Source: Minisyncoccota bacterium
Lineage (GTDB): Bacteria; Patescibacteriota; Minisyncoccia; JAHIHE01; JAGLIN01
Direction: 5' to 3'
Assembly: GCA_023137595.1 (NCBI GenBank)
Contig: JAGLOZ010000013.1
Span: forward strand, 1-35,757
Length of the DNA stretch: 35,757 nt
Under the pieces are notes generated by a model. It saw nothing but the letters and a program-made list of their open reading frames with translations, searched no databases and was not told where the DNA came from. Made by a program: the position numbers and the translations under genes. Shown here one piece after another: positions 21,063-34,150 of the stretch (position 1 is the stretch's first letter; the number at the start of each line of letters is the position of its first letter).

Positions 21063-21620
21063 ATGGAAACTTATCTATTGCTAATTCTCGTGGTTTTAAT
21101 CGTTCTTGGGTTGTGGATCGTAAAAATTTACAACGGGCTGATTAGATTAAGGGTGAGAACTAATGAAGCATGGTCTGACATTGATGTACAGCTCAAAAGA
21201 AGGTATGATTTAATTCCAAATTTAATAAATACAGTAAAGGGGTATGCAACTCATGAAAAAGAGCTTTTTGAGAATGTTACCAAGGCAAGAGCGAACGCAA
21301 TGAACGCTCAAAACCCCGGAGAAAAAGGACAAACAGAGAATATGCTGACGGACGCTTTGAAAAGTCTGTTTGCGGTCAGTGAAAACTATCCGCAATTAAG
21401 AGCCAATGAAAATTTCCTTGAACTTCAAAGAGAGCTTTCTGATACAGAAAACAAAATTCAAGCCTCAAGAAGATTTTACAACGGTAATGTTCGCGATCTT
21501 AACACTAAAATTCAAGTATTTCCGGACAGTATTGTCGCCAATATGCTGAAAATCGGGAAAAGAGAATTTTTTGAAGTTGAAGACGAAAAAGAAAAAGAAA
21601 CACCGAAAGTTGAGTTTTAG
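21063..21620 (+). CDS. lemA: LemA family protein
   Basis: 185 aa; N-terminal TM, YNGLIRLRVRTNEAWSDIDVQLKRRYDLIPNLINTVKGYATHEKELFE. Confidence 0.95.
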   Translation: METYLLLILVVLIVLGLWIVKIYNGLIRLRVRTNEAWSDIDVQLKRRYDLIPNLINTVKGYATHEKELFENVTKARANAMNAQNPGEKGQTENMLTDALKSLFAVSENYPQLRANENFLELQRELSDTENKIQASRRFYNGNVRDLNTKIQVFPDSIVANMLKIGKREFFEVEDEKEKETPKVEF

Positions 21621-21839: not shown

Positions 21840-24494
21840 ATGGCAAAAAAATGTATAAGGGTCGTTTTTAACATCTTGAATCAGATAAATAAAAAGATAT
21901 TTTTGTTTGTGTTTTTAGCGATGATTTTTTCTTTATTCGTTTCTTTCCAAAATACTGAAAAAATAACGGTGAATGCCGTATTGATTCCCTGCACTTTTCC
22001 TGGTTGTGGCGGTTGTCCTGATAAATTCAGAAATCATCCTGTCAATGGATACGCGCAAAAAAAGAATTGTCATTGTAATGTGGGTTGTCATTCTTCCAGC
22101 TGTGGTTGTGGTGCTTGGTTCTATATTGACTGGTGCGGAGATGGCGATAATAACAATGGTGAAGATTGTGATGGGGCGACTTCTCCGCCAGCGAATCCAT
22201 GTTTTTATGAAGGATACAATGGATTGTTCTTGTGCGATCGTTGTGATTGGCAACATACGGTCGTAGACGCTATTGACTGCTCCGCTAATATTCCCTGGGT
22301 GTCATACGATAGAAATGATTGTTCTTGGGAAGCATTTTGCACGCCTATTGACTGGTGCGGAGACGGCATCGTAAACGGGGTAGCAGCTGCAGGGGGTGAA
22401 GAATTATATTGCGATATATCTCCCTGGGGAGCCAGCGATTTTAGCGGGCAAACTTGCGCGAGTAAAATTTGTAATGATATTGATCCGACAAACCTTATAG
22501 ACGGAAGTTCGTTTTCGCGAAATCCTGCTTGTCTAGCGGAAATGGCGGCTTATGGCGGGAATTTAATATGCGCCAATACTTGCAGGCATATTTATACGGT
22601 TCCCGCGTGCGATTTTCCGTTGGATGCTACCGGGATTGCTCTTTCCGATGACGGTCTTCATGTTTTCGTGACAGATTCGTCTTTGTGGAGCCTTCAGGTG
22701 TTTTCTATTGCTGATCCGACAACAGTGCTCGCAATTTATTATTTTAACGCAGAGCCTTTGAGTGTTGATGTTGTTGGGAGTATTGGCGCTGCCGGAAGTT
22801 ATGCGTATGTTGGCACTAAAGGAGAATTTTCAATTATTAATATCAATCAGATTGGTGGCACGCCGGATCTTGACGCTGCTGACGCTTTCGGACAACCTTG
22901 GCCTCCTAAGCTGAACAAGGACTATCTCTATGACTTCAAAGAAGAACAAGTTAATTTGCTTGCGTTGCCAAGTGTCGCTGCTTTAGGCGAAATCAATGAT
23001 GTTCATATTGATGGCAATTATGCTTATCTGGCAATCGGGACCGAAGGAGCTGTTGGTCCATCGGCGCTTCAAATTATTGACATTTCTGCCCCGGCCGCTT
23101 CTTTCTCCGTAGGAAGCTTCTCACATGCTGATACAATGACTGGCGTTCAGAGCGTTGATGTTTCCGGAAATTATGCCTATGTGTCCTATACTGACGGAAA
23201 CAGTGGCGTGGGATATTTTGAATATTTTAATGTTACGAATAAGGCGGCTCCAATGCCGATAAAATTGATTGACATTGGCACTACATCCAGTAGTATTGTT
23301 GTCTCCGGAAATTATGCCTATATAGACGGTTTTTCTACTCAAAGTACCATTAATATTGCCACTCCCGGCAATCCTGCGTCGGTGCTTGCAGTTGATAATA
23401 TTAACACAGGATTTGAGACTTTTACTTTTGATATTTTTGGAGATAATGCTTATGCTAGCGTTGAAGGCGTAGGACTTAGGGCGGTTGACATTTCTGTTCC
23501 GGAAGATGTTGTTTTGGGTGAAACTTATGTTGTTTCAAATGATGTTGTTAATGAGATTATGGTGGATGTTGTCGTTGATGCTGTCGGTCATTATGCCTAC
23601 GCGGCTGCCGGAGAAGCAGGTATTAGGATTATTGATCTATGGGCTGTTTGCGGTGATGGTGTTTTGAACGGGCTTGAAGTTTGCGATGGGTTGGATTTAG
23701 GAGGAGAAACTTGCGTTACTCAGGGTTTCGCGCAAGGAGATTTATCGTGTAATCCTTTTTGCACTGCTTTTGATACAAGCGCTTGCGTTGATTGTGGAAC
23801 TACTGATGGGATCTGTCCCGTGGGATGTACTAATCCTCCTGATCTAGACTGTCCATCCTGCGAAGGTGTTGTCTGCAACACTCCCGGTTTTTGTGAAATT
23901 GGAACTGGGGTTTGCAAGAATGTGGGCGGTAGTGCTGTTTGTGTTTATCCTGACGATCCTAACGTCTGCAATACTCCCGGTTTTTGCCAAGTAGAACCTG
24001 GAAGATGTGATAAGTCGGATGGCAGTTGCCGCTATTCCGATGATCCGGGTTTTTGTGATTCAGGAGATGGTGATATTTGCACGGGTGACAGATGTGTATC
24101 AACAGATGGCGGGCTTAGCAGTAATTGCGTGGTGGGATCTGACATTTGTAGCGGTATCGTTCCTTGTGAGAGAATGGTTAATAATCCCGCGACACTATGG
24201 GATGATACAGAGTCATGTGAATTTTGTCATGGTGTTATGCTTTTGAACCAGGGAATGAATTTTTTGATGAAAATAGCATCTCTGATAGCTGTTTTAGCTA
24301 TTATAATAACAGGATTTTTGTTTATAACTTCTGCGGGAAATCCGGAAAGAAAAAATAAAGCAAAGGCCGCGCTTAAATGGGTTATTGTTGGATTTTTGAT
24401 ATTATCTTTGTCGTGGCTGATCGTTGACTTTTTGCTTAGCGCATGGGGATATTTAGATCCCCTTGGAGGAGAGTGGAATGTTATTTGTGATTAA
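21840..24494 (+). CDS. secreted Cys-rich / LVIVD-type beta-propeller protein with C-terminal two-TM pilin-like (VirB2/TrbC-like) domain
   Basis: 884 aa; N-terminal TM; repeated GNYAYV...IIDIS units; CGDGxxNGxExCD motifs; C-terminal ESCEFCHGVMLLNQGMNFLMKIASLIAVLAIIITGFLFITSAGNPERKNKAKAALKWVIVGFLILSLSWLIVDFLL. Confidence 0.85.
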   Translation: MAKKCIRVVFNILNQINKKIFLFVFLAMIFSLFVSFQNTEKITVNAVLIPCTFPGCGGCPDKFRNHPVNGYAQKKNCHCNVGCHSSSCGCGAWFYIDWCGDGDNNNGEDCDGATSPPANPCFYEGYNGLFLCDRCDWQHTVVDAIDCSANIPWVSYDRNDCSWEAFCTPIDWCGDGIVNGVAAAGGEELYCDISPWGASDFSGQTCASKICNDIDPTNLIDGSSFSRNPACLAEMAAYGGNLICANTCRHIYTVPACDFPLDATGIALSDDGLHVFVTDSSLWSLQVFSIADPTTVLAIYYFNAEPLSVDVVGSIGAAGSYAYVGTKGEFSIININQIGGTPDLDAADAFGQPWPPKLNKDYLYDFKEEQVNLLALPSVAALGEINDVHIDGNYAYLAIGTEGAVGPSALQIIDISAPAASFSVGSFSHADTMTGVQSVDVSGNYAYVSYTDGNSGVGYFEYFNVTNKAAPMPIKLIDIGTTSSSIVVSGNYAYIDGFSTQSTINIATPGNPASVLAVDNINTGFETFTFDIFGDNAYASVEGVGLRAVDISVPEDVVLGETYVVSNDVVNEIMVDVVVDAVGHYAYAAAGEAGIRIIDLWAVCGDGVLNGLEVCDGLDLGGETCVTQGFAQGDLSCNPFCTAFDTSACVDCGTTDGICPVGCTNPPDLDCPSCEGVVCNTPGFCEIGTGVCKNVGGSAVCVYPDDPNVCNTPGFCQVEPGRCDKSDGSCRYSDDPGFCDSGDGDICTGDRCVSTDGGLSSNCVVGSDICSGIVPCERMVNNPATLWDDTESCEFCHGVMLLNQGMNFLMKIASLIAVLAIIITGFLFITSAGNPERKNKAKAALKWVIVGFLILSLSWLIVDFLLSAWGYLDPLGGEWNVICD

Positions 24495-24601
24495 ATTCTA
24501 TTGCTAAACTCTCAGCTAAAACCGGGTGGGCAACAGATCATACGCGATTCAACTCTAGTTTGATGATCTTACCGTTTTATTTCACGGTTCTCTGAAAATT
24601 C

Positions 24602-24770
24602 GTCATTCTGAACTTGTCTACCCAAGCTGTCTAAAAAGTTCCCATCCGGGTAGATTTGAGCCCTCGCTCAAATTTAAAATGGCTTAGGAGAAATTAAAGC
24701 GAGGGCTTTAATCTACTCGGTATAGTTATTAGACAGCCTGTACAGACAGGCAGGCTTGTTTCAGAATGAC
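24602..24770. repeat. nested repeat: gtcattctgaa-family element interrupted by a ctgtctaa...ttagacag element (24627-24737)
   Basis: Outer gtcattctgaacttgt...caggcttgtttcagaatgac; inner element matches 6120-6225 in reverse complement. Confidence 0.8.
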
Positions 24771-24857
24771 GATTTATAATAAAGCTTTGATTGTTAAATA
24801 TGATTAAATCGCGCATAATCCGCTTTTCGATCGGCAATATAAAAATATTATAAGCAT

Positions 24858-25496
24858 ATGTCAGGTAATTTAAAGAAAATCATTATTGCTGTTGTCGTAA
24901 TCATTTCTATCTTACTTTCTTTTTTAGTAGGTATAGTTTTTTTTCTAAAAGAAAAAAATGAAGGAATCCCAAACCAAAACAACAAACAAGAAGAACAGCG
25001 ATCAAAAGATCCTGAAAAAACAGAATTAACAGGGAAAGAAGAATTAACGGAGAAAGAAAAAGCAAAGATATTCGCAGAAAATTTTGCTGTATTTTACCAC
25101 ACTTATAATTGGGGAGATTTTTCAAACATTGAATCGCTATATGATTCCATGACCGATGGAATGAAAAACAAAGAAAAAAACAGAGTAGAACGAATGAAGA
25201 AAGAAACAGAAGCTCAGCCACGAAAATATTTTTCTGCAAAGGCAAAATTAATAGATTCCTCGTTTTTATTATACAATGAAAATAGGGCGGAGGTCATTGC
25301 AGATATAAACATTGATGACTTTGCTGGCGCGATTATCCAAAGAGAAACTATCCTTTGGGTAGATGAAAAAGGAGATCCTTATTTGGGCGAGATAGATGAT
25401 TTAGTTATAAGTTCAAAAAATAAAAAAGTTAAAATTAATTCTATCAAGGTTTATGATGAATGGAAAATAAGCGCAATAGAAAATATTGATGAATAG
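24858..25496 (+). CDS. hypothetical protein with N-terminal TM anchor
   Basis: 212 aa; KKIIIAVVVIISILLSFLVGIVFFL followed by a charged soluble region. Confidence 0.7.
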   Translation: MSGNLKKIIIAVVVIISILLSFLVGIVFFLKEKNEGIPNQNNKQEEQRSKDPEKTELTGKEELTEKEKAKIFAENFAVFYHTYNWGDFSNIESLYDSMTDGMKNKEKNRVERMKKETEAQPRKYFSAKAKLIDSSFLLYNENRAEVIADINIDDFAGAIIQRETILWVDEKGDPYLGEIDDLVISSKNKKVKINSIKVYDEWKISAIENIDE

Positions 25497-25542
25497 ATCT
25501 TGATTTTGTTTAGTAATTTATTGCTAAGGAATTAAAACATGA

Positions 25543-25580
25543 GCATTGTAGAAACGCGATTAATCGCGTTTCTACAATGC
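25543..25580. repeat. perfect 38-bp palindrome
   Basis: gcattgtagaaacgcgatt/aatcgcgtttctacaatgc. Confidence 0.9.
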
Positions 25581-25641
25581 GCGCTTTGCGTTTGTGTTTG
25601 TAAAACCTAATTTCTTTGAATTACGAAATACAAATTTTTAT

Positions 25642-25737
25642 GTCATTCCAAGTCTTAAGCGAGGAATCCCTTCAGTATTATTTGAAGCTTACAATATTTA
25701 AGGGATTTCTCAGTCGTTATCACTCCATCAAAATGAT
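25642..25737. repeat. degenerate gtcattgcgagg-family MITE-like copy
   Basis: gtcattccaagtcttaagcgaggaatccc ... gggatttctcagtcgttatcactccatcaaaatga. Confidence 0.55.
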
Positions 25738-25787
25738 AAAAAGGAACATTTCATAATTCAAAGTAATTTATTCGTTAAATAGGATCT

Positions 25788-27761
25788 ATGAGAAAAATAA
25801 AATTTTTGGCATGCTTTGCAGTTTTGTTGATGTTATTTTCTGTAGCAGGCAGTAGAATCATAAATGCTTTTAGTCTTGTAACTGAGTGCCAGCCGGTGCT
25901 TGATGAGTTTTCAAATGGTGATCCAATGTCTGGAGATCGAACTTTCAATATTACTTTTCCTCCCGGAGGAGGAACGACTTGTGATACACTCGCGGATTGT
26001 CCCAAAATATCTCTTCCTTCCGGGTCAACTGTTTTTAGTGTTAAAGTTGATATGGTCATTGCTGATCCGAGCTCGGAGATTAAAACGCCTTATATTTGGA
26101 TACCCGTTACGTATCTTCCTGATGGCGTTACCGAGAATAATAAATTAAAACAGGTAAGCATAAATGATTGCGGCGTAATTGAAACATATGATGTTGTTTT
26201 CGCTCCTTCGCGCACATATGTTGTTCCCGGAGGAGATGTCTGGGTAGCGAGTGAAACAGGAACAGATGTTTCAAAATTGTCGCCTCTTACGGGAACCGCT
26301 CCTGCCGGAGGAACTTGCGGCAATGCGTTATGCGGAATTGATGAAACAATATATCTTTGTCCGGCAGATTGTTCCGGGAATGTATGCGGAGCTGTCGGAA
26401 ATGAACCTTGCGTAAAATATGAAGTATTGGGTAATTTCTCTCCCGCTATCGTTGGCGGAGTAAAAGGAATAACAGGTGATTTTGACGGAAACATCTGGAC
26501 TGGTAATTGCGGAGATCTTGATGTTTCAAAGTTAGACAAGGATACTTGGCCAACTTTCAAATTAGTTCCTGATGTTAATACGGGAGGATGTCCGTTCGGA
26601 GTAATAGGAGATTTCTTTGGTCATGTTTGGGTCTCTAATAGAGGAAATTCTTTGCAGTGCATAGACTCTTCAACCGGTGTGCTAAGAAATGTAGATATAA
26701 TAAATTCTCCTTATGGTATTAGCGTAGACAAAGACAGCAATATCTATGTATCTTGCTATGAAGACGGAACGGTTCTCAAATATGATTTTGTAACCGGAAA
26801 TTGTCCCGGCGCGCTTGCTCCTTCGTCAATCTATGACACCAAAGTGCTTTCGGGAACTGGCGGAGTGGCTGTTGACAGTAAAGGATATGTTTGGACTGCA
26901 AATTCGCATGATGATGAATTCTATATATTCATTAATCCTACTACTTGGTTTAATGTTCATCCCGGTACGACAAATTTAATCGGAGTGTCCGCTGATTCTG
27001 ACGATTATGGCTGGGTTGTAAGTTATGATGACGGAGTGGCTCATAAATATGAATTTGATGACATTACTAATAAATTTAATATGCATTGCCAGACACCGTA
27101 TCTGGGAGGAAAGCTCTTTGGTTATACGGATATGACAGGACTCAGATTGTTTCCGAAGGTTATTTCGTCCCAAGGCACGCCAGAAGCCCCCCTCTCTTCT
27201 TCCGGAAATTTTACGGTTTGTTCGGATGGAACGGGAACTTGCACAAATGGAGCAAATTGCGCGGTAATTAACGCTTTTTTAGCGGGTTGCGTGCCGGATG
27301 AATCCGGTAATTGCGAGATTTCACTTGAAATTTCTTCCATACAGGCTGGCAAATTTACATTAAAAAATTTAGAAGTAATATATAACGATGATGTTGTCGT
27401 AACAACGGGAGGTCTTATTCCGTGTGACAGAAAATGGAATGACCCGGCAACTACATGGGACGATACAGAATCTTGTCGGTTATGCCATATGATCATTCTT
27501 GCGAATTCAATAATAAATTTCTTAATGAAATTAGTTATTTTGATCACTGTATTGGCGTTAGTTGTCGGAGGATTGATCTATGTAAAAACTTCCGGAGACG
27601 CAAGCTTGATCGTATCAGCGAAACAAAATGTTAATAAGATTTTATATGGTTTTGTGCTGATCTTTATCGTCTGGGTCGTTGTAAATTTAATTATGGTTTT
27701 ATTTGGCTTTGTGGATCCTTTAGGAGACGGAAATTGGGCGGTGTTTAGCTGTGATCTATAA
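25788..27761 (+). CDS. secreted Vgb/NHL-like beta-propeller protein with C-terminal two-TM pilin-like domain
   Basis: 657 aa; signal sequence; repeats such as GITGDFDGNIWTGN, GVIGDFFGHVWVSNRG, GISVDKDSNIYVSC, GVAVDSKGYVWTAN; C-terminal WDDTESCRLCHMIILANSIINFLMKLVILITVLALVVGGLIYV. Confidence 0.85.
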   Translation: MRKIKFLACFAVLLMLFSVAGSRIINAFSLVTECQPVLDEFSNGDPMSGDRTFNITFPPGGGTTCDTLADCPKISLPSGSTVFSVKVDMVIADPSSEIKTPYIWIPVTYLPDGVTENNKLKQVSINDCGVIETYDVVFAPSRTYVVPGGDVWVASETGTDVSKLSPLTGTAPAGGTCGNALCGIDETIYLCPADCSGNVCGAVGNEPCVKYEVLGNFSPAIVGGVKGITGDFDGNIWTGNCGDLDVSKLDKDTWPTFKLVPDVNTGGCPFGVIGDFFGHVWVSNRGNSLQCIDSSTGVLRNVDIINSPYGISVDKDSNIYVSCYEDGTVLKYDFVTGNCPGALAPSSIYDTKVLSGTGGVAVDSKGYVWTANSHDDEFYIFINPTTWFNVHPGTTNLIGVSADSDDYGWVVSYDDGVAHKYEFDDITNKFNMHCQTPYLGGKLFGYTDMTGLRLFPKVISSQGTPEAPLSSSGNFTVCSDGTGTCTNGANCAVINAFLAGCVPDESGNCEISLEISSIQAGKFTLKNLEVIYNDDVVVTTGGLIPCDRKWNDPATTWDDTESCRLCHMIILANSIINFLMKLVILITVLALVVGGLIYVKTSGDASLIVSAKQNVNKILYGFVLIFIVWVVVNLIMVLFGFVDPLGDGNWAVFSCDL

Positions 27762-27885: not shown

Positions 27886-28788
27886 ATGCCAACACTATAT
27901 ACTCAATCAGATAGAAACACTCGCAACACTTACATTCTAATGTCAGTGTTTTTGGTCTTCGTGATTGCGATAGGCTGGGTTTTTTCAGAGGCGATGGGAT
28001 CAAGCGCGATTCTTTGGTTTGCGGTGATCTTTAGTATTTTAATGAGTATTGGAAGTTATTGGTATTCGGATAAAATAGTTTTGAAAATGAGCAAAGCGCG
28101 TCTTGTTGAATTTGAAGATAACAAAGAACTATATCGCTTGGTGGAAAATCTTTGCATTACAGCCGGACTTCCTCTTCCTAAAATATATATCATAAATGAT
28201 ACCGCGCCAAACGCTTTTGCAACGGGACGGGATCCGGAACATGCTGTTGTGGCGGTAACGAGCGGGATTTTGCAGAAATTAAATAGAAGCGAGCTGGAAG
28301 GAGTGATCGCTCACGAACTTTCGCATATTGGCAATCGAGATATTCTGTTAGCAACTGTTGTTGTTGTCCTAGTTGGAATCGTGGCTCTTCTCGCTGATTC
28401 TTTCAGATATTCTTTGTGGTTTGGAGGAGGAAATCGAGATAATAATAAAGGAGGAGGTTGGATAATAGTTGTCGCAATTTTACTTTCTATTCTTGCTCCA
28501 TTTTTTGCGCTGCTCATTCAACTGGCAATTTCGAGAAAGAGAGAATTTCTCGCCGATGCCGATGCTGCGCTTCTAACTCGTTATCCGGAAGGACTGGCAA
28601 GCGCTCTCAAAAAAATTTCTGCTGATCCTGAAAAGCTTGAAGTTGCCAATCGCGCTACCGCGCATCTTTATATTGCCAATCCATTTAAAGGAAAAAAAGT
28701 AAGCAAAATGTTTATGACTCATCCGCCGATTGAAGAGAGAATTGCAGCTTTGACGGGGATGGATGTGAAAGATATCGTCAAAAGTTAA
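27886..28788 (+). CDS. htpX: HtpX-family M48 zinc metalloprotease
   Basis: 300 aa; IAHELSHIGNRD, AISRKREFLADADAA, MTHPPIEERIAAL. Confidence 0.95.
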   Translation: MPTLYTQSDRNTRNTYILMSVFLVFVIAIGWVFSEAMGSSAILWFAVIFSILMSIGSYWYSDKIVLKMSKARLVEFEDNKELYRLVENLCITAGLPLPKIYIINDTAPNAFATGRDPEHAVVAVTSGILQKLNRSELEGVIAHELSHIGNRDILLATVVVVLVGIVALLADSFRYSLWFGGGNRDNNKGGGWIIVVAILLSILAPFFALLIQLAISRKREFLADADAALLTRYPEGLASALKKISADPEKLEVANRATAHLYIANPFKGKKVSKMFMTHPPIEERIAALTGMDVKDIVKS

Positions 28789-28808
28789 AATAATTAATAA
28801 TAAAAATT

Positions 28809-29717
28809 ATGGATAAAAAAAGACTAGTAATTCCAGTTATTTTGCTTTTTTTAGTTTTGATGATAAGTCTTTTTTTTAACATCAAATTCTTTATGCAAAA
28901 TGAAGATTTTAAAGCACAAAATGGTTTATTAAATCAAAATGCTGGTTCATTAAACAAAGAAAATGAAGCGTTGTGTCAAAAGATCAATTCATTAAATCAG
29001 GAAATTAGCGGAATTGAAATTGAAATGTATGAGCTTGAAGGGACTAAGCAAGGGAAAATTATCTCAGAGATGAATTATAATTGCAAATGGAATTGTTCAA
29101 ATTATCTGATCCAAAAAGATTATCAGAATAAGACCAATTTTAATAATAGATGCCACGAAGATTGTCGGCGTGAATTAGATAGAATTGCCGCTGAAATCCG
29201 TATTAGTCCGAATATGGATTTGGAAGCTGAATATGACATTAAATTTTTTCTTAATTATATCAAAGAAGATAAACCGGTTATATTTAAACTTATCAATCAA
29301 GATTTGGGAAACCTAACTGGAGATAGTGAGTATGACTCGGTCTTTGCAAGAAGCGTGTATGAAGTTGCTAATATGGGATATCGAGTTGTTCCATTTCCAT
29401 TTATTGAAAAAAATGGTGAAATAAAGGAGCTAAATAATTTAAACGATCTATATTTTAATAAAAATGGGGATTTGATAGATTGTGAATCAAGTGAAATCAA
29501 TGTCGAGCTGTGCGATACTTTAAAAAAATTCAGCGCAAATGACAGGGCGGAAGGAATGCTTCTTGATTGCGGATCAAAACATTGCAATTTTTTAGAAGCG
29601 ATCAGAACAAAAAATACTAAGCATTGTTCTGGTATAAGCAAATATTCTTTATCGCCAAATGATGGCAAATGGATTCAGCTTTGCGAGGAAATGATCAAAG
29701 AATTAAAAGAACAGTAA
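28809..29717 (+). CDS. hypothetical membrane-anchored coiled-coil protein
   Basis: 302 aa; N-terminal TM, then Asn/Gln-rich heptad-like region, Cys-containing C-terminus. Confidence 0.7.
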   Translation: MDKKRLVIPVILLFLVLMISLFFNIKFFMQNEDFKAQNGLLNQNAGSLNKENEALCQKINSLNQEISGIEIEMYELEGTKQGKIISEMNYNCKWNCSNYLIQKDYQNKTNFNNRCHEDCRRELDRIAAEIRISPNMDLEAEYDIKFFLNYIKEDKPVIFKLINQDLGNLTGDSEYDSVFARSVYEVANMGYRVVPFPFIEKNGEIKELNNLNDLYFNKNGDLIDCESSEINVELCDTLKKFSANDRAEGMLLDCGSKHCNFLEAIRTKNTKHCSGISKYSLSPNDGKWIQLCEEMIKELKEQ

Positions 29718-29776
29718 AATGCTTATAATCCATCTGCCGATTGAAGAAAGGATTGTGGTTTTGAATATGAAATAGA
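29717..29776 (+). pseudogene. degenerate fragment resembling the 3' end of htpX
   Basis: aaatgcttataatccatctgccgattgaagaaaggattgtggttttgaatatg vs htpX aaatgtttatgactcatccgccgattgaagagagaattgcagctttgacggggatg. Confidence 0.75.
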
Positions 29777-29933
29777 CTTCTTGCGTAATTAATTTTGTGA
29801 CGAAATTTTCAGATTTTGAGGCAAATTTTTCAAATAATTTTTGAAGCCTAGCCTAGCATAAGCTGAAAAAATTTTTGGGGGATTTGATCAAAATCTGGAA
29901 ATTGCAGTAGGAATTAATTACGCAAGAGGTCTA
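29773..29933. mobile_element. 161-bp MITE-like element, about 22-bp TIRs starting tagacYtcttgcgtaattaatt
   Basis: tagacttcttgcgtaattaatt ... aattaattacgcaagaggtcta with a long imperfect internal palindrome. Confidence 0.8.
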
Positions 29934-30151
29934 ATATAGAAAACGCACGGAGTGTAGAGTGCAGTGATAGCGGAGTTTTACCTGAAAGCGGGATCAAGCG
30001 ATACTTCAGGTTGAACTCTGCTCCACTACGCTCAACACTCCAAGATTACAGTTAAACTTCACTCTTCCTTTTGTAAGGAGTCCAACGCTCACGCTAGCGT
30101 TCGTGTCTATAAATAATATTAAAATACGCAATCTATTAACAATAAAAATAT

Positions 30152-31174
30152 ATGGATCAATTTGATGAAATAGATTCGAAAAACAAAAAAATAATCAAGA
30201 TAATAATAGCCCTGGTCTCTTTTCTTGTTATTAGCATTATATCGCCTCTTTCTTTTTTTATTTACGCTAATGTTACGCTAAATAATATTATGACGGATGT
30301 TGATTATGAATTTATAGAAAAAGGTGAGATTTCAAAAAATAAAGGTGTCGAATATGCCGAAAAACTGGAAAATATTCCCCTCAAGTTTATTTTTGAAGAC
30401 CAATATCATTATAATTATTATTTATCTGAAGCTTATGGCGCTGCCGGTGAGTATGATAAAATGATTCTTAGCGCTCAAAAGATGATAGAAAGCGGAGACG
30501 AGCATCCCGTTTCGCATTATTATTTGGGAATGGCTCATTATAACAGTGGCAATTATGATAATGCGGAAAAAGAATTTGATAGAACAATTTCTATGATGGA
30601 TGATTTGATTACAGAAGACGAATATATTCTTTATGAACTTGATTCGATCTATTTAGAAGAAGAAATGGAAATTCACAGGGCTTTGGCATATATAAATGTT
30701 AAAAAAGAAAATTTAAATGAGGTTAAGATACAGCTCGCATTTGCTGTTAGCGACAAGATATATTCTTTATCTGAAGAATATATAAACAGTTTTAACGAAA
30801 ATCTGTATTATAATTATTACGGGAGTTATGATTTTATGCCAAAAGTAAATGAAGTTCCCTTAGATGAAAAAAAGGAAGCAATTGTAATTGAATTTGCGGA
30901 TAAAATCGCCAGAGGACATAGTGTTCATCTTGATAATGCTGAAATTAAAAAAATAAAAAATTCTGATTATTTATCTGATAGCGATAACGATGGATTAAGC
31001 GATAATTTGGAAAAAGTGCTTGGTACCAGCGAATATAAAAAAGACACGGACAAAGACGGGTTTGACGATAAAAAAGAGCTTATTGGCGGATATGATCCGC
31101 TTGTAAAATCTCCGCTTGGGGTAATGGATGGTCTTGATTATTATAATTTATATTTGAAAATTATAGATCTATAA
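30152..31174 (+). CDS. membrane-anchored protein with TPR-like region and C-terminal thrombospondin type 3 Ca-binding repeats
   Basis: 340 aa; HYYLGMAHYNSGNYDNAEKEFDR; DSDNDGLSDNLEKVLGTSEYKKDTDKDGFDD. Confidence 0.78.
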   Translation: MDQFDEIDSKNKKIIKIIIALVSFLVISIISPLSFFIYANVTLNNIMTDVDYEFIEKGEISKNKGVEYAEKLENIPLKFIFEDQYHYNYYLSEAYGAAGEYDKMILSAQKMIESGDEHPVSHYYLGMAHYNSGNYDNAEKEFDRTISMMDDLITEDEYILYELDSIYLEEEMEIHRALAYINVKKENLNEVKIQLAFAVSDKIYSLSEEYINSFNENLYYNYYGSYDFMPKVNEVPLDEKKEAIVIEFADKIARGHSVHLDNAEIKKIKNSDYLSDSDNDGLSDNLEKVLGTSEYKKDTDKDGFDDKKELIGGYDPLVKSPLGVMDGLDYYNLYLKIIDL

Positions 31175-31409
31175 TTTTGCGCCAAGCTTAATTGAAAGCA
31201 TGATAATTTCAATATAAACTATATAGTGGAGTGACAAACGCAATGAAATGGAGCTTGTTATCGTCAAGGAAATTATTTAATGAGATTGCTACGCATAACA
31301 TACTCCGCGGAGTTTATTCTGATGCATGTCAGGGCTTTGTATGTCATTCCAGTAACATAAATACGCTTTGCGTATGTTTTCGTAATATCTAACCAATAAT
31401 CTAAAAACT

Positions 31410-33506
31410 ATGACCACAAAATTTGCCAGTTTGATAACGCTTGGAGCTATTGCTTCTATGGTTTTTACGATTTTTGCAACCGTTGCTTTTCTGTTGGATT
31501 TTGTAAATGCGCAGTTCTTGATTGCTTTTACAATAGCCATAAATATAATTATGTGGCTCATATCTCCAATCATCAGTGATTGGATGTTTAAGATCTTTTA
31601 TAAGATAAAATTTTACAAGCAAGAAGAATTTAAAAGTCTATATCCGGAACTTGCTGATTTTATACATAAAACCTGCTTGAATAATAATGCCAAATTTCCA
31701 AAGATTGGAATCATAAATGACGACAACCCAACTGCTTTTACTTATGGCTCCTTGCCTTCAAATGCAAGAATAGTTTTTTCAAAAGGAATTTTTACTTATC
31801 TTAATCCGAATGAAGTTGAGGCGATAGCAGCGCATGAAATCGGACATATTGTTCATTATGATTTTATAGTAATGACAATTGCCTCTACCATGGTGCAAAT
31901 TTTATATGAACTGTATTTTATATTCTATAAAAGAAACAAAAGCGGGCAGAGAAGAGATAATAATATATTTGCTGTGATTGGAATTATTTCTTATGTTTTT
32001 TATGTTATTGCCGGTTATATTCTGTTGTTCTTGAGCCGTACCAGGGAATATTATGCTGATGAATTTTCAGCGAATACGACAAGAAGACCAAATGATCTTT
32101 CTTCAGCGCTTATCAAGATCGCTTATGGTATGGTGGCAAAAAAATCTGATAGCAAAACTAACAGGCTAATGGAAAGCACGAGGTCTCTTGGCGCTATGGA
32201 TCCGCATTTGTCAAAGGGAGTCGGTGTTGTGTCGGAAATTTCAGGAAACAATAGTCATCAAATAGGACAGGTTATGGCGTTTGATTTTGTCAGTCCATGG
32301 GCAGTAATTTTGGAACTTAGCTCCACGCATCCTCTTACTGGAAAGAGGATAAGAAAAATGGATGTTATGGCGCAGAAAATGGGGCAAGAAAAGCTTTATG
32401 ACATAAAGAAAGTCATAAATAATATGGTTATTGACAGAAGCAGACTTTATTCAGGGTTCTATAAAGGAGTTTTAATTTATTATTTACCGCATATCGCGGT
32501 ATTCTTGGGATTGCTACTAAATTATTTCCTTGGAAATCCTGTTTATATTTTTGTGTTTTTGGGATTGGGCATGATCGGAAAAGCTTTGTACAGGTTTCCT
32601 AATTCTTCTGCCGAGAATGTTTCACTTTTGGATCTAATGATGGATATTTATGCTTCGCCGGTTCGGGGGAAAAAGATCGCGGTTCAAGGAAAAATAATCG
32701 GCAAAGGAGAAGCTGGAGCCTATTTCTCTGAAGATCTGATGTTTGAAGATAATACCGGAATTATCTATCTTGATTACAGCTCAAAAATCGGTTTTGTGGG
32801 CAACTTATTTTTTGCTTTAAGCAAAATTAAAAGAATTTTAGGAAAAAGTGTTTCTGCTGAAGGATGGTTTTTTAGAGGAAATTCACAAATGATCTCATTA
32901 AAAAATCTTAGAACTGATTCTTTGGAAGTTAAAAGTTATCCGAAATTGTGGTCGCTATTAAGCGGGATCGCTTTGGCTGTGGGCGGTTTTTTTCTTTTTG
33001 GAGTAAGCGAAGAGGTAAGTGGTATTTTTATATTCCTTATTGGTCTTGTTGTGTTGATATTTCTTGCTGCTTATTCACTTCGCAAATGGTTGGGTTTAAA
33101 AGCGTTGAAAGGAAAAAGTTTCACGAAAATTGCAGAAGGTCTTGAAATTGATCAAAACGTAAAAGAGGAAATTGAAAATAGTGAAAATGTAATATTGTAT
33201 TTCCTAAGCGATAAGCTTCTCTTTAAAAGCGGTTTTGGAGAAAAAATTTCAGAAAAGAAATCGGATAAAAATAAACAAAAAATTAATTCTTTGTTTGAAG
33301 AGCTGAAATCAAAATATAATTTAACGGTTATCGTTTTAGATCCTGCAAATAATGTTGGATTGAGTCAAGAGCTAAAATTGCCGATTGATTCAAAAATAAA
33401 TCCAAATATTGTTTTCCTCAAGAACGGAACGATCAAGCGTATTGCGACTGGCTATCAGAAAAGCCGTAGTTTTTTGAAAAAAATAAATCCGGGAAAGTAT
33501 AAATAA
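31410..33506 (+). CDS. multidomain M48 family metalloprotease (M48 + OB-like + TM + thioredoxin-like C-terminus)
   Basis: 698 aa; AAHEIGHIVHYD, LSRTREYYADEFSA, STHPLTGKRI; YASPVRGKKIAVQGKIIGKGEAG; C-terminal LTVIVLDPANNV...NPNIVFLKNGTIKRIATG. Confidence 0.85.
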   Translation: MTTKFASLITLGAIASMVFTIFATVAFLLDFVNAQFLIAFTIAINIIMWLISPIISDWMFKIFYKIKFYKQEEFKSLYPELADFIHKTCLNNNAKFPKIGIINDDNPTAFTYGSLPSNARIVFSKGIFTYLNPNEVEAIAAHEIGHIVHYDFIVMTIASTMVQILYELYFIFYKRNKSGQRRDNNIFAVIGIISYVFYVIAGYILLFLSRTREYYADEFSANTTRRPNDLSSALIKIAYGMVAKKSDSKTNRLMESTRSLGAMDPHLSKGVGVVSEISGNNSHQIGQVMAFDFVSPWAVILELSSTHPLTGKRIRKMDVMAQKMGQEKLYDIKKVINNMVIDRSRLYSGFYKGVLIYYLPHIAVFLGLLLNYFLGNPVYIFVFLGLGMIGKALYRFPNSSAENVSLLDLMMDIYASPVRGKKIAVQGKIIGKGEAGAYFSEDLMFEDNTGIIYLDYSSKIGFVGNLFFALSKIKRILGKSVSAEGWFFRGNSQMISLKNLRTDSLEVKSYPKLWSLLSGIALAVGGFFLFGVSEEVSGIFIFLIGLVVLIFLAAYSLRKWLGLKALKGKSFTKIAEGLEIDQNVKEEIENSENVILYFLSDKLLFKSGFGEKISEKKSDKNKQKINSLFEELKSKYNLTVIVLDPANNVGLSQELKLPIDSKINPNIVFLKNGTIKRIATGYQKSRSFLKKINPGKYK

Positions 33507-33661
33507 GCATCATTAAAATTTAGGAATTTCAATCCAGTGTTTTAGAAGCTAAGTTTCTAAAATGCGCGAAGCCTAATTTGTTGTATGGAAATTTGAATAA
33601 TTCAAACGCAATAGCATATGCATTGATACATCTATCTATTATTTAATTAAATTAAGAAAGT

Positions 33662-34150
33662 ATGAAAAACAACAAAGCAATTATTTTAGTGTTATTATTA
33701 ATTACCGTTCTTTCTTTTTCAGGATGCTCAATAAGGAAAGCTGAAGAAGAAACGGAAAATAAAGCGCCAGAGATAAAAGAGAACAAAGAAATTAAAATTA
33801 TTGATACAGACGGAGATGGGCTAAAGGACGAGGAAGAGAAAGTTTTAGGAACTGACATTGATAAATTTGATACAGACGATGATGGACTGAATGATTTTGA
33901 AGAAGTGAAAAAATGGAAAACAGATCCGCTGAAAGCTGATACGGATGGAGATGGTTATCTTGATGGACAGGAAGTTGAAGGCGGATATGATCCATTGGGC
34001 TCAGAACAGCTGGATTCTGACAATGATGGGCTTGGTGATGCTGATGAGAAAAAAATTGGAACGGATCCTGAGAAATTTGACACGGACGGCGATGGCTTGA
34101 GCGATAAAGAAGAAATTGACGCAGGACGCGATCCGTTGATAGCAGAGTAA
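33662..34150 (+). CDS. lipoprotein with thrombospondin type 3 repeats
   Basis: 162 aa; lipobox LSFSGC; DTDGDGLKDEEEKVLGTD, DTDDDGLNDFEE, DTDGDGYLDGQE and similar. Confidence 0.88.
   Translation: MKNNKAIILVLLLITVLSFSGCSIRKAEEETENKAPEIKENKEIKIIDTDGDGLKDEEEKVLGTDIDKFDTDDDGLNDFEEVKKWKTDPLKADTDGDGYLDGQEVEGGYDPLGSEQLDSDNDGLGDADEKKIGTDPEKFDTDGDGLSDKEEIDAGRDPLIAE

Follow-up and report, generated by a model that had tools for sequence, protein, structure and literature searches.

Putative modular type IV secretion pilins with beta-propeller heads and a candidate VirB8-like protein encoded in a gene cassette of Patescibacteria

How ultrasmall episymbionts recognize and hold their host cells is an open question, and the locus described here raises it in a specific form: what are two large beta-propeller proteins that end in the same two-helix module, and does this module identify them as pilins? 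The locus lies in a stretch of 35,757 nucleotides (the whole DNA analysed, called the window in the following) from a genome of 1.1 Mb, whose source is probably a tiny, host-dependent bacterium; homologues of the window proteins occur in MAGs of Candidatus Parcubacteria, Paceibacterota and Patescibacteria. Arrays of VirB2-like pilins have been described in Patescibacteria and are thought to aid host range, according to a survey of 3,035 genomes, in which VirB8 homologues were very scarce and adhesins of the PrgB type were not found (PMC12102498). The pilins described are small and arranged in arrays of 2-11, and in the text consulted there is no mention of large ectodomains or propellers (PMC12102498, PMC10633639). 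S. epibionticum, the one genetically tractable case, cannot grow as an epibiont without the T4SS and its VirB2-like pilins (PMC10633639). The reading favoured here, with moderate confidence, is that the two propeller proteins (ORF A and ORF B) are modular minor pilins of a Patescibacteria type IV secretion system (T4SS), and that X1, the gene between them, codes for a divergent VirB8/PrgL-like component encoded together with them. What the computations themselves show is that both proteins have a pilin module and a propeller, that relatives exchange the ectodomains, that the cassette is conserved and that an operon for VirB4, PrgI and a VirB6-like protein lies elsewhere in the genome.

The genes follow each other on the + strand in the order lemA, ORF A, X1, ORF B and htpX, with the following features:

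21063..21620, + strand: lemA, an ordinary gene (PF04011, 213 bits) at the conserved upstream border of the cassette, context only
21840..24494, + strand: ORF A (884 aa), with signal peptide, Cys-rich region, LVIVD beta-propeller, second Cys-rich region and T4SS-pilin module
21990..22583 (approximate), + strand: N-terminal Cys-rich ectodomain of ORF A (Cys positions 51-248)
22587..23640 (approximate), + strand: LVIVD beta-propeller of ORF A (PF08309, 37.6 bits, cut-off 20.2)
23649..24149 (approximate), + strand: second Cys-rich stalk of ORF A (Cys positions 604-770)
24150..24491, + strand: T4SS-pilin module of ORF A (collar C776, C793 and C796; TM1 804-835; loop; TM2 842-872; final C883)
24858..25496, + strand: X1 (212 aa), one N-terminal TM and an extracytoplasmic NTF2-like domain, VirB8/PrgL-like
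25543..25580, no strand: perfect inverted repeat with 17-bp arms and a 4-nt loop in the gap between X1 and ORF B
25788..27761, + strand: ORF B (657 aa), with signal peptide, Vgb/NHL-like beta-propeller, beta domain and T4SS-pilin module
26085..27107, + strand: beta-propeller of ORF B (about residues 100-440; AlphaFold and Foldseek)
27408..27758, + strand: T4SS-pilin module of ORF B (collar C546, C563 and C566; TM1 565-603; loop; TM2 613-648; final C655)
27886..28788, + strand: htpX (M48 peptidase), an ordinary gene (PF01435, 114.8 bits) at the downstream border of the cassette, context only

Some further elements of the window were noted in passing. The palindrome at 25543-25580 occurs as a single copy in the genome, so its interpretation as a mobile repeat is unsupported. 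The gap between ORF A and X1 (24582-24790) contains nested imperfect inverted repeats with arms of 23-31 nt, which resemble a degenerate repeat element, and a 228-aa protein encoded on the minus strand at 2365-3051 matches the IS200-like/Y1 transposases (PF01797) at 20.4 bits, below the cut-off of 23, and is possibly REP-associated. The region 27886-34150 codes for two M48 metallopeptidases (300 and 698 aa), proteins with TSP3-type calcium-binding repeats and a TPR protein, a block which is kept beside htpX in relatives. PADLOC matched no defence system in the window, and the search for structured RNAs there returned nothing beyond the known tRNA.

The ends common to ORF A and ORF B consist of the motif string PC-R--N-PAT-WDD-SC--CH, a first TM helix, a short basic polar loop, a second TM helix and the terminal motif G(Y/F)xDPLG-W-C. 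Together with the signal peptides, the two hydrophobic helices and the short basic loop represent the layout of the T4SS_pilin family, which is thus present in both proteins. ORF A matches the family profile PF18895 over residues 801-865 with 40.4 bits (cut-off 26.6), and each of the 10 A-type sequences matches it too; ORF B by itself reaches 17.9 bits, below the same cut-off, and the members of its family match without exception (7/7 homologues, best E 6.4e-13). A further profile was derived from nine pilins of this genome which stand alone, with the four-Cys subtype of ORF A and ORF B excluded. Against this profile, ORF A obtains 49.9 bits (E 1.7e-14), ORF B 32.7 bits (E 3.9e-9) and the next best ORF of the window 4.5 bits. 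When each C-terminus was shuffled locally 500 times, the best copy reached 25.2 bits (A) and 11.7 bits (B). Composition therefore contributes part of the score of ORF A, since shuffles preserving it reach 25 bits, and this value and the sub-threshold Pfam score of ORF B alone are what could be said for a generic TM hairpin resembling pilins by chance. However, the unshuffled proteins score roughly twofold the best shuffle or higher, every member of the families gives a match, the motifs and collar cysteines are invariant, and stand-alone homologues occur in pilin arrays. A chance hairpin is excluded by the leave-subtype-out profile and the shuffles, being refuted at the level of sequence, and deserves hardly any credence.

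The module had been likened to VirB2/TrbC pilins in the first-pass annotation. This view stood as far as the assignment to T4SS_pilin is concerned; the part referring to VirB2/TrbC proper (PF04956) did not, with matches staying below the cut-off (12.4 bits for ORF A against 27.9 required, up to 25.4 in relatives). A sequence search with the module found none of the solved VirB2 pilins either, and because of these two results no direct VirB2 membership is claimed. As judged from the profiles, the module belongs to PF18895 and is only remotely related to the VirB2 of proteobacteria. No type IV pilin family (IPR012902, class III signal and fold) was among the Pfam matches, and the module is a two-TM T4SS pilin. 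It contains four cysteines, three in the collar preceding TM1 and one following TM2, and because all four are invariant across 15 aligned modules, the pattern suggests that they form disulfides tying both outside ends together. The hydropathy and charge pattern, with five K/R residues in the loop of ORF A, three in that of ORF B and an acidic collar, would place both ends of the module outside and the basic loop in the cytoplasm.

The ectodomains preceding the module are of different kinds. The first-pass annotation had described an 884-aa protein with a Cys-rich and LVIVD-like ectodomain and a 657-aa protein with a Vgb/NHL-like one, and both descriptions were confirmed, the former at the length and position listed above and with PF08309 exceeding its cut-off. 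The propeller of ORF A is encoded by DNA with six 26-nt repeats (22783-23600), one per G-x-Y-A-Y blade, and its orthologues have 938 aa (L048/L086) and 1034 aa (L087). The propeller of ORF B matches the Vgb_lyase/NHL families of Pfam weakly, and it is recovered in an AlphaFold model, a check which had been proposed for both proteins and was run on ORF B. The full model has a mean pLDDT of 63.6 and predicts a propeller head and a C-terminal pair of helices: the propeller mostly shows pLDDT values of 70-92 with residues 168-207 at low confidence, and the hairpin helices (H564-600 and H605-638) are of moderate confidence. Foldseek matches of this propeller include the NHL domain of PknD (1rwi) and virginiamycin B lyase (2z2p). 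The propeller type of PilY1 (IPR008707) was not matched by either head, the matches being LVIVD and Vgb/NHL. In a comparison of the window with a relative of another genus (G001/L048), dN/dS is about 0.28 for ORF A and about 0.18 for ORF B, indicating purifying selection. The identity values of the modules exceed those of the ectodomains (83% versus 65% in ORF A, 92% versus 78% in ORF B), and hence the two are real genes with a conserved carrier and heads that diverge faster.

The low-confidence linkers flanking the collar in the model of ORF B, together with the membrane-bound M48 protease HtpX encoded next to the cassette, might indicate that the proteins are precursors, from which the propeller is cut off and released, perhaps by that protease, and the pilin module set free to polymerise. 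This appears quite improbable, since no conserved cleavage motif is seen ahead of the collar in the aligned modules and htpX is not specific to the cassette: lemA and htpX are directly joined without it in three relatives (G002, G005 and G015) of the 14 genomes containing lemA. For the same reason, htpX and lemA were both rejected as functional partners of the cassette. A pilin-module gene adjoins lemA in 11 of these 14 genomes, and htpX was confirmed on its other side in 10.

The composition of this site differs among relatives. The neighbour of X1 and ORF B carries an LVIVD head in the window, G001 and G010, a head of Dictyostelium-type repeats in G016 and a C-terminally extended pilin in G004, and it is missing in G008; in other genomic contexts, the partner of X1 is either a short pilin or a fusion with a MopE or VWA-like head. 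Ectodomains are thus swapped at syntenic positions. The pattern extends beyond this site, as at least 26 of the approximately 150 best-scoring modules from 38 relatives searched, found in 18 genomes, lie in stop-to-stop frames of 300 aa or more (a hand count), and pilin-module frames of up to about 1,500 aa, again counted from stop to stop, were found in a sample of the phylum. The Pfam names of the ectodomains comprise LVIVD, NHL/Vgb, VWA, right-handed beta-helix, PKD, FN3, Big_7 (Ig), MopE, DUF2341 and a Dictyostelium-type repeat, and some fusions carry the pilin module at the N-terminus instead. Because relatives fuse the same module to so many different domains, the ectodomains are regarded as exchangeable. 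Two fusions show peculiarities of their own. A 429-aa protein encoded between lemA and htpX in G014 (L159:2180-3469) has the htpX leader (MPTLYTQLDKNTHNRYIL) duplicated at its start, which looks as though its signal region had been acquired from the 5' end of htpX, and an intact htpX follows downstream. In another fusion (L057:3-1721, G019), the N-terminal part resembles by eye a ComEC-type metallo-beta-lactamase fold, which Pfam does not confirm.

Further members of the same pilin family and parts of a secretion machine are encoded in the genome of the window itself. A profile search of its contigs located PF18895 in 12 places at E<=0.001, 11 of them exceeding the cut-off, corresponding to about ten further pilin loci besides ORF A and ORF B. 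Most of these places are small pilins in arrays (contigs C44, C74 and C35), and the third gene of one three-pilin array codes for a stand-alone pilin of the four-Cys subtype (188 aa, L015:10314-10880). The only VirB4 of the genome, which is split, is encoded in a T4SS operon on contig C43 (PF19044 P-loop_TraG, 91.7 bits; CagE_TrbE_VirB, 21.4 bits), along with PrgI (38.1 bits), a giant TrbL/VirB6-like protein with a weak match (17.7 bits) and a 412-aa pilin at the end. The latter (L017:8728-9966) shows a reversed layout, with the module first and a Cys-containing ectodomain at the C-terminus. The shared module predicted in the first-pass annotation is present in both proteins with the same motif string and with profile scores above those of the shuffles, and neither of the two doubts attached to it was borne out: the module is a PF18895 pilin by the leave-subtype-out profile and the shuffles rather than a generic hairpin, and it is conserved elsewhere, since this genome also has it in pilins that stand alone and fusions containing it occur throughout the class and the phylum. 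The searches suggested at the same time were likewise productive, with further module-bearing ORFs at all three of these levels and VirB4/VirB6-type genes on contig C43.

Note that the cassette has no virB4 beside it in the genome of the window. This distance and the size of the heads, which extend over about 540 and 770 residues ahead of the module, would be consistent with the pilin-derived module serving as a membrane anchor only, the proteins being single adhesins, receptors or enzymes outside any T4SS; the fusions are also more numerous than one pilus tip needs, and in part of them the module is N-terminal. We nevertheless consider this explanation rather unlikely. The pilin-specific motifs are kept well beyond what a plain anchor demands and the module is the most conserved part of the proteins, and one helix or a lipid anchor would suffice for simple anchoring. 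Moreover, relatives contain the four-Cys subtype as short pilins in arrays, and X1 in a virB4 operon.

X1, which had been left unmentioned in the first-pass annotation, bears on the favoured assignment of ORF A and ORF B to a T4SS. Its AlphaFold model (mean pLDDT 78.8, with the core in the 90s) shows an NTF2-like fold, and only the fold search was informative, as comparison with the PDB by sequence yielded no useful match. Among the matches listed by Foldseek against the PDB, the highest target-normalised TM-score belongs to the VirB8 domain of PrgL (7aed_A, 0.64), and further VirB8-type domains are those of R. typhi (0.61), an IcmL-like protein (0.59), CagV (0.57) and TraM (0.55). When sorted by E-value, ARC6 comes first, and ARC6 and CaMKII hubs score similarly, the NTF2 fold being common. 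Because of the lead of ARC6, the fold alone does not prove X1 to be a VirB8, and no VirB8-type Pfam family is listed for any of 12 members of the X1 family at E up to 1.

The stronger argument for a VirB8-like nature of X1 is its genomic linkage. At each of the 12 loci examined it has a pilin-module gene as neighbour, and these loci represent four or more genomic contexts: between lemA and htpX (the window, G001, G004, G008, G010 and G016), near gyrA (G002, G005 and G013), near eno (G014) and, in G015 only (L101), in a virB4 operon directly after VirB4; elsewhere it stands beside modular pilins. X1 occurs in 10 of the 238 genomes of the class, all within the order of the window, and it is not universal, since it is absent from three near-complete genomes which have pilin fusions (G003, G006 and G007). 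In comparison with the VirB8 proteins of Gram-positive T4SS (PrgL of pCF10, TraM of pIP501), it shares the alpha-class layout of one N-terminal TM and one NTF2-like domain, but differs in having no sequence-profile match and in its position beside modular pilins instead of virB4, except at L101. X1 is thus a candidate for the VirB8 that is scarce in Patescibacteria.

The favoured reading implies the following mechanism. The VirB2-like two-helix module at the C-terminus would act as the carrier and the N-terminal beta-propeller as cargo displayed outside the cell. ORF A and ORF B would be exported by Sec, and the hairpin would insert into the membrane with both ends out and the basic loop in. 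A few copies would then become part of the T4SS pilus or channel or be attached to it, the tip being the most likely place, so that the short pilins would be joined by minor, tip or base subunits. A propeller is by estimate wider than the share of the pilus surface available to one VirB2 subunit, and since propellers on every subunit would clash, a minor or tip position is to be expected. The propellers may bind the surface of a host or partner cell, and X1 may belong to a ring that spans the envelope and is coupled to the assembly of the pilus. By swapping heads, a lineage could change its binding target and keep the machine. The domain architecture fits a role in a decorated appendage or as an anchored adhesin, and the propellers may also serve another function, e.g. 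an enzymatic or sensory one.

Compared with the known pilin arrays of Patescibacteria (PF18895), ORF A and ORF B share the pilin module, its multiplicity in the genome and the VirB4/PrgI/VirB6-like type of T4SS, but differ in the large propeller ectodomains attached to the module. They share their design with PilB and PilC of Streptococcus sanguinis, in which a small pilin carries a bulky grafted module (PMC8179133). An adhesin function is proven for modular type IV pilins onto which VWA modules are grafted, with PilB of Streptococcus sanguinis as proof of principle, and pilins of the PilB/PilC type are widespread, diverse (VWA, lectin and others) and thought to be located at the tip (PMC8179133). 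They possess an N-terminal class III signal and type IV pilin fold (IPR012902) and are assembled by the T4P machine, whereas the carrier of ORF A and ORF B is a T4SS/VirB2-like pair of helices in a usually C-terminal position. Because this carrier is an unrelated pilin fold, the two proteins would work like modular type IV pilins without being any. A propeller at the pilus tip, as proposed here, is also known from PilY1, often combined with VWA, in type IVa pili (PMC8179133). The PilY1/PilC tip adhesin is no pilin itself and depends on minor pilins, in contrast to the propellers described here, which are covalently fused to a pilin. The adhesins of the PrgB type in Gram-positive conjugation offer a parallel in the contact to a mating partner or host proposed for a monoderm T4SS. 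PrgB is LPxTG-anchored and unrelated to ORF A and ORF B, in which the adhesin would sit on the pilin itself. In the literature searched, from which many subscription papers are missing, no account was found of a T4SS pilin bearing a grafted module.

We tentatively propose, as a possibility rather than a probability, that Patescibacteria of the order of the window (and members of the phylum at large, there with different heads) possess a T4SS contact apparatus whose exchangeable adhesin heads are fused to a VirB2-like pilin and which is coupled to a hitherto unrecognised VirB8-like protein. If this is true, the grafting of a binding module onto a pilin would have arisen independently in an unrelated pilin fold, and the apparatus would supply the adhesins and the VirB8 which surveys of Patescibacteria T4SS reported as missing or scarce. 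The modular T4SS pilins and the linked VirB8-like gene are now named candidates for these two gaps, and the pilin-fused heads would decide which host cell is gripped.
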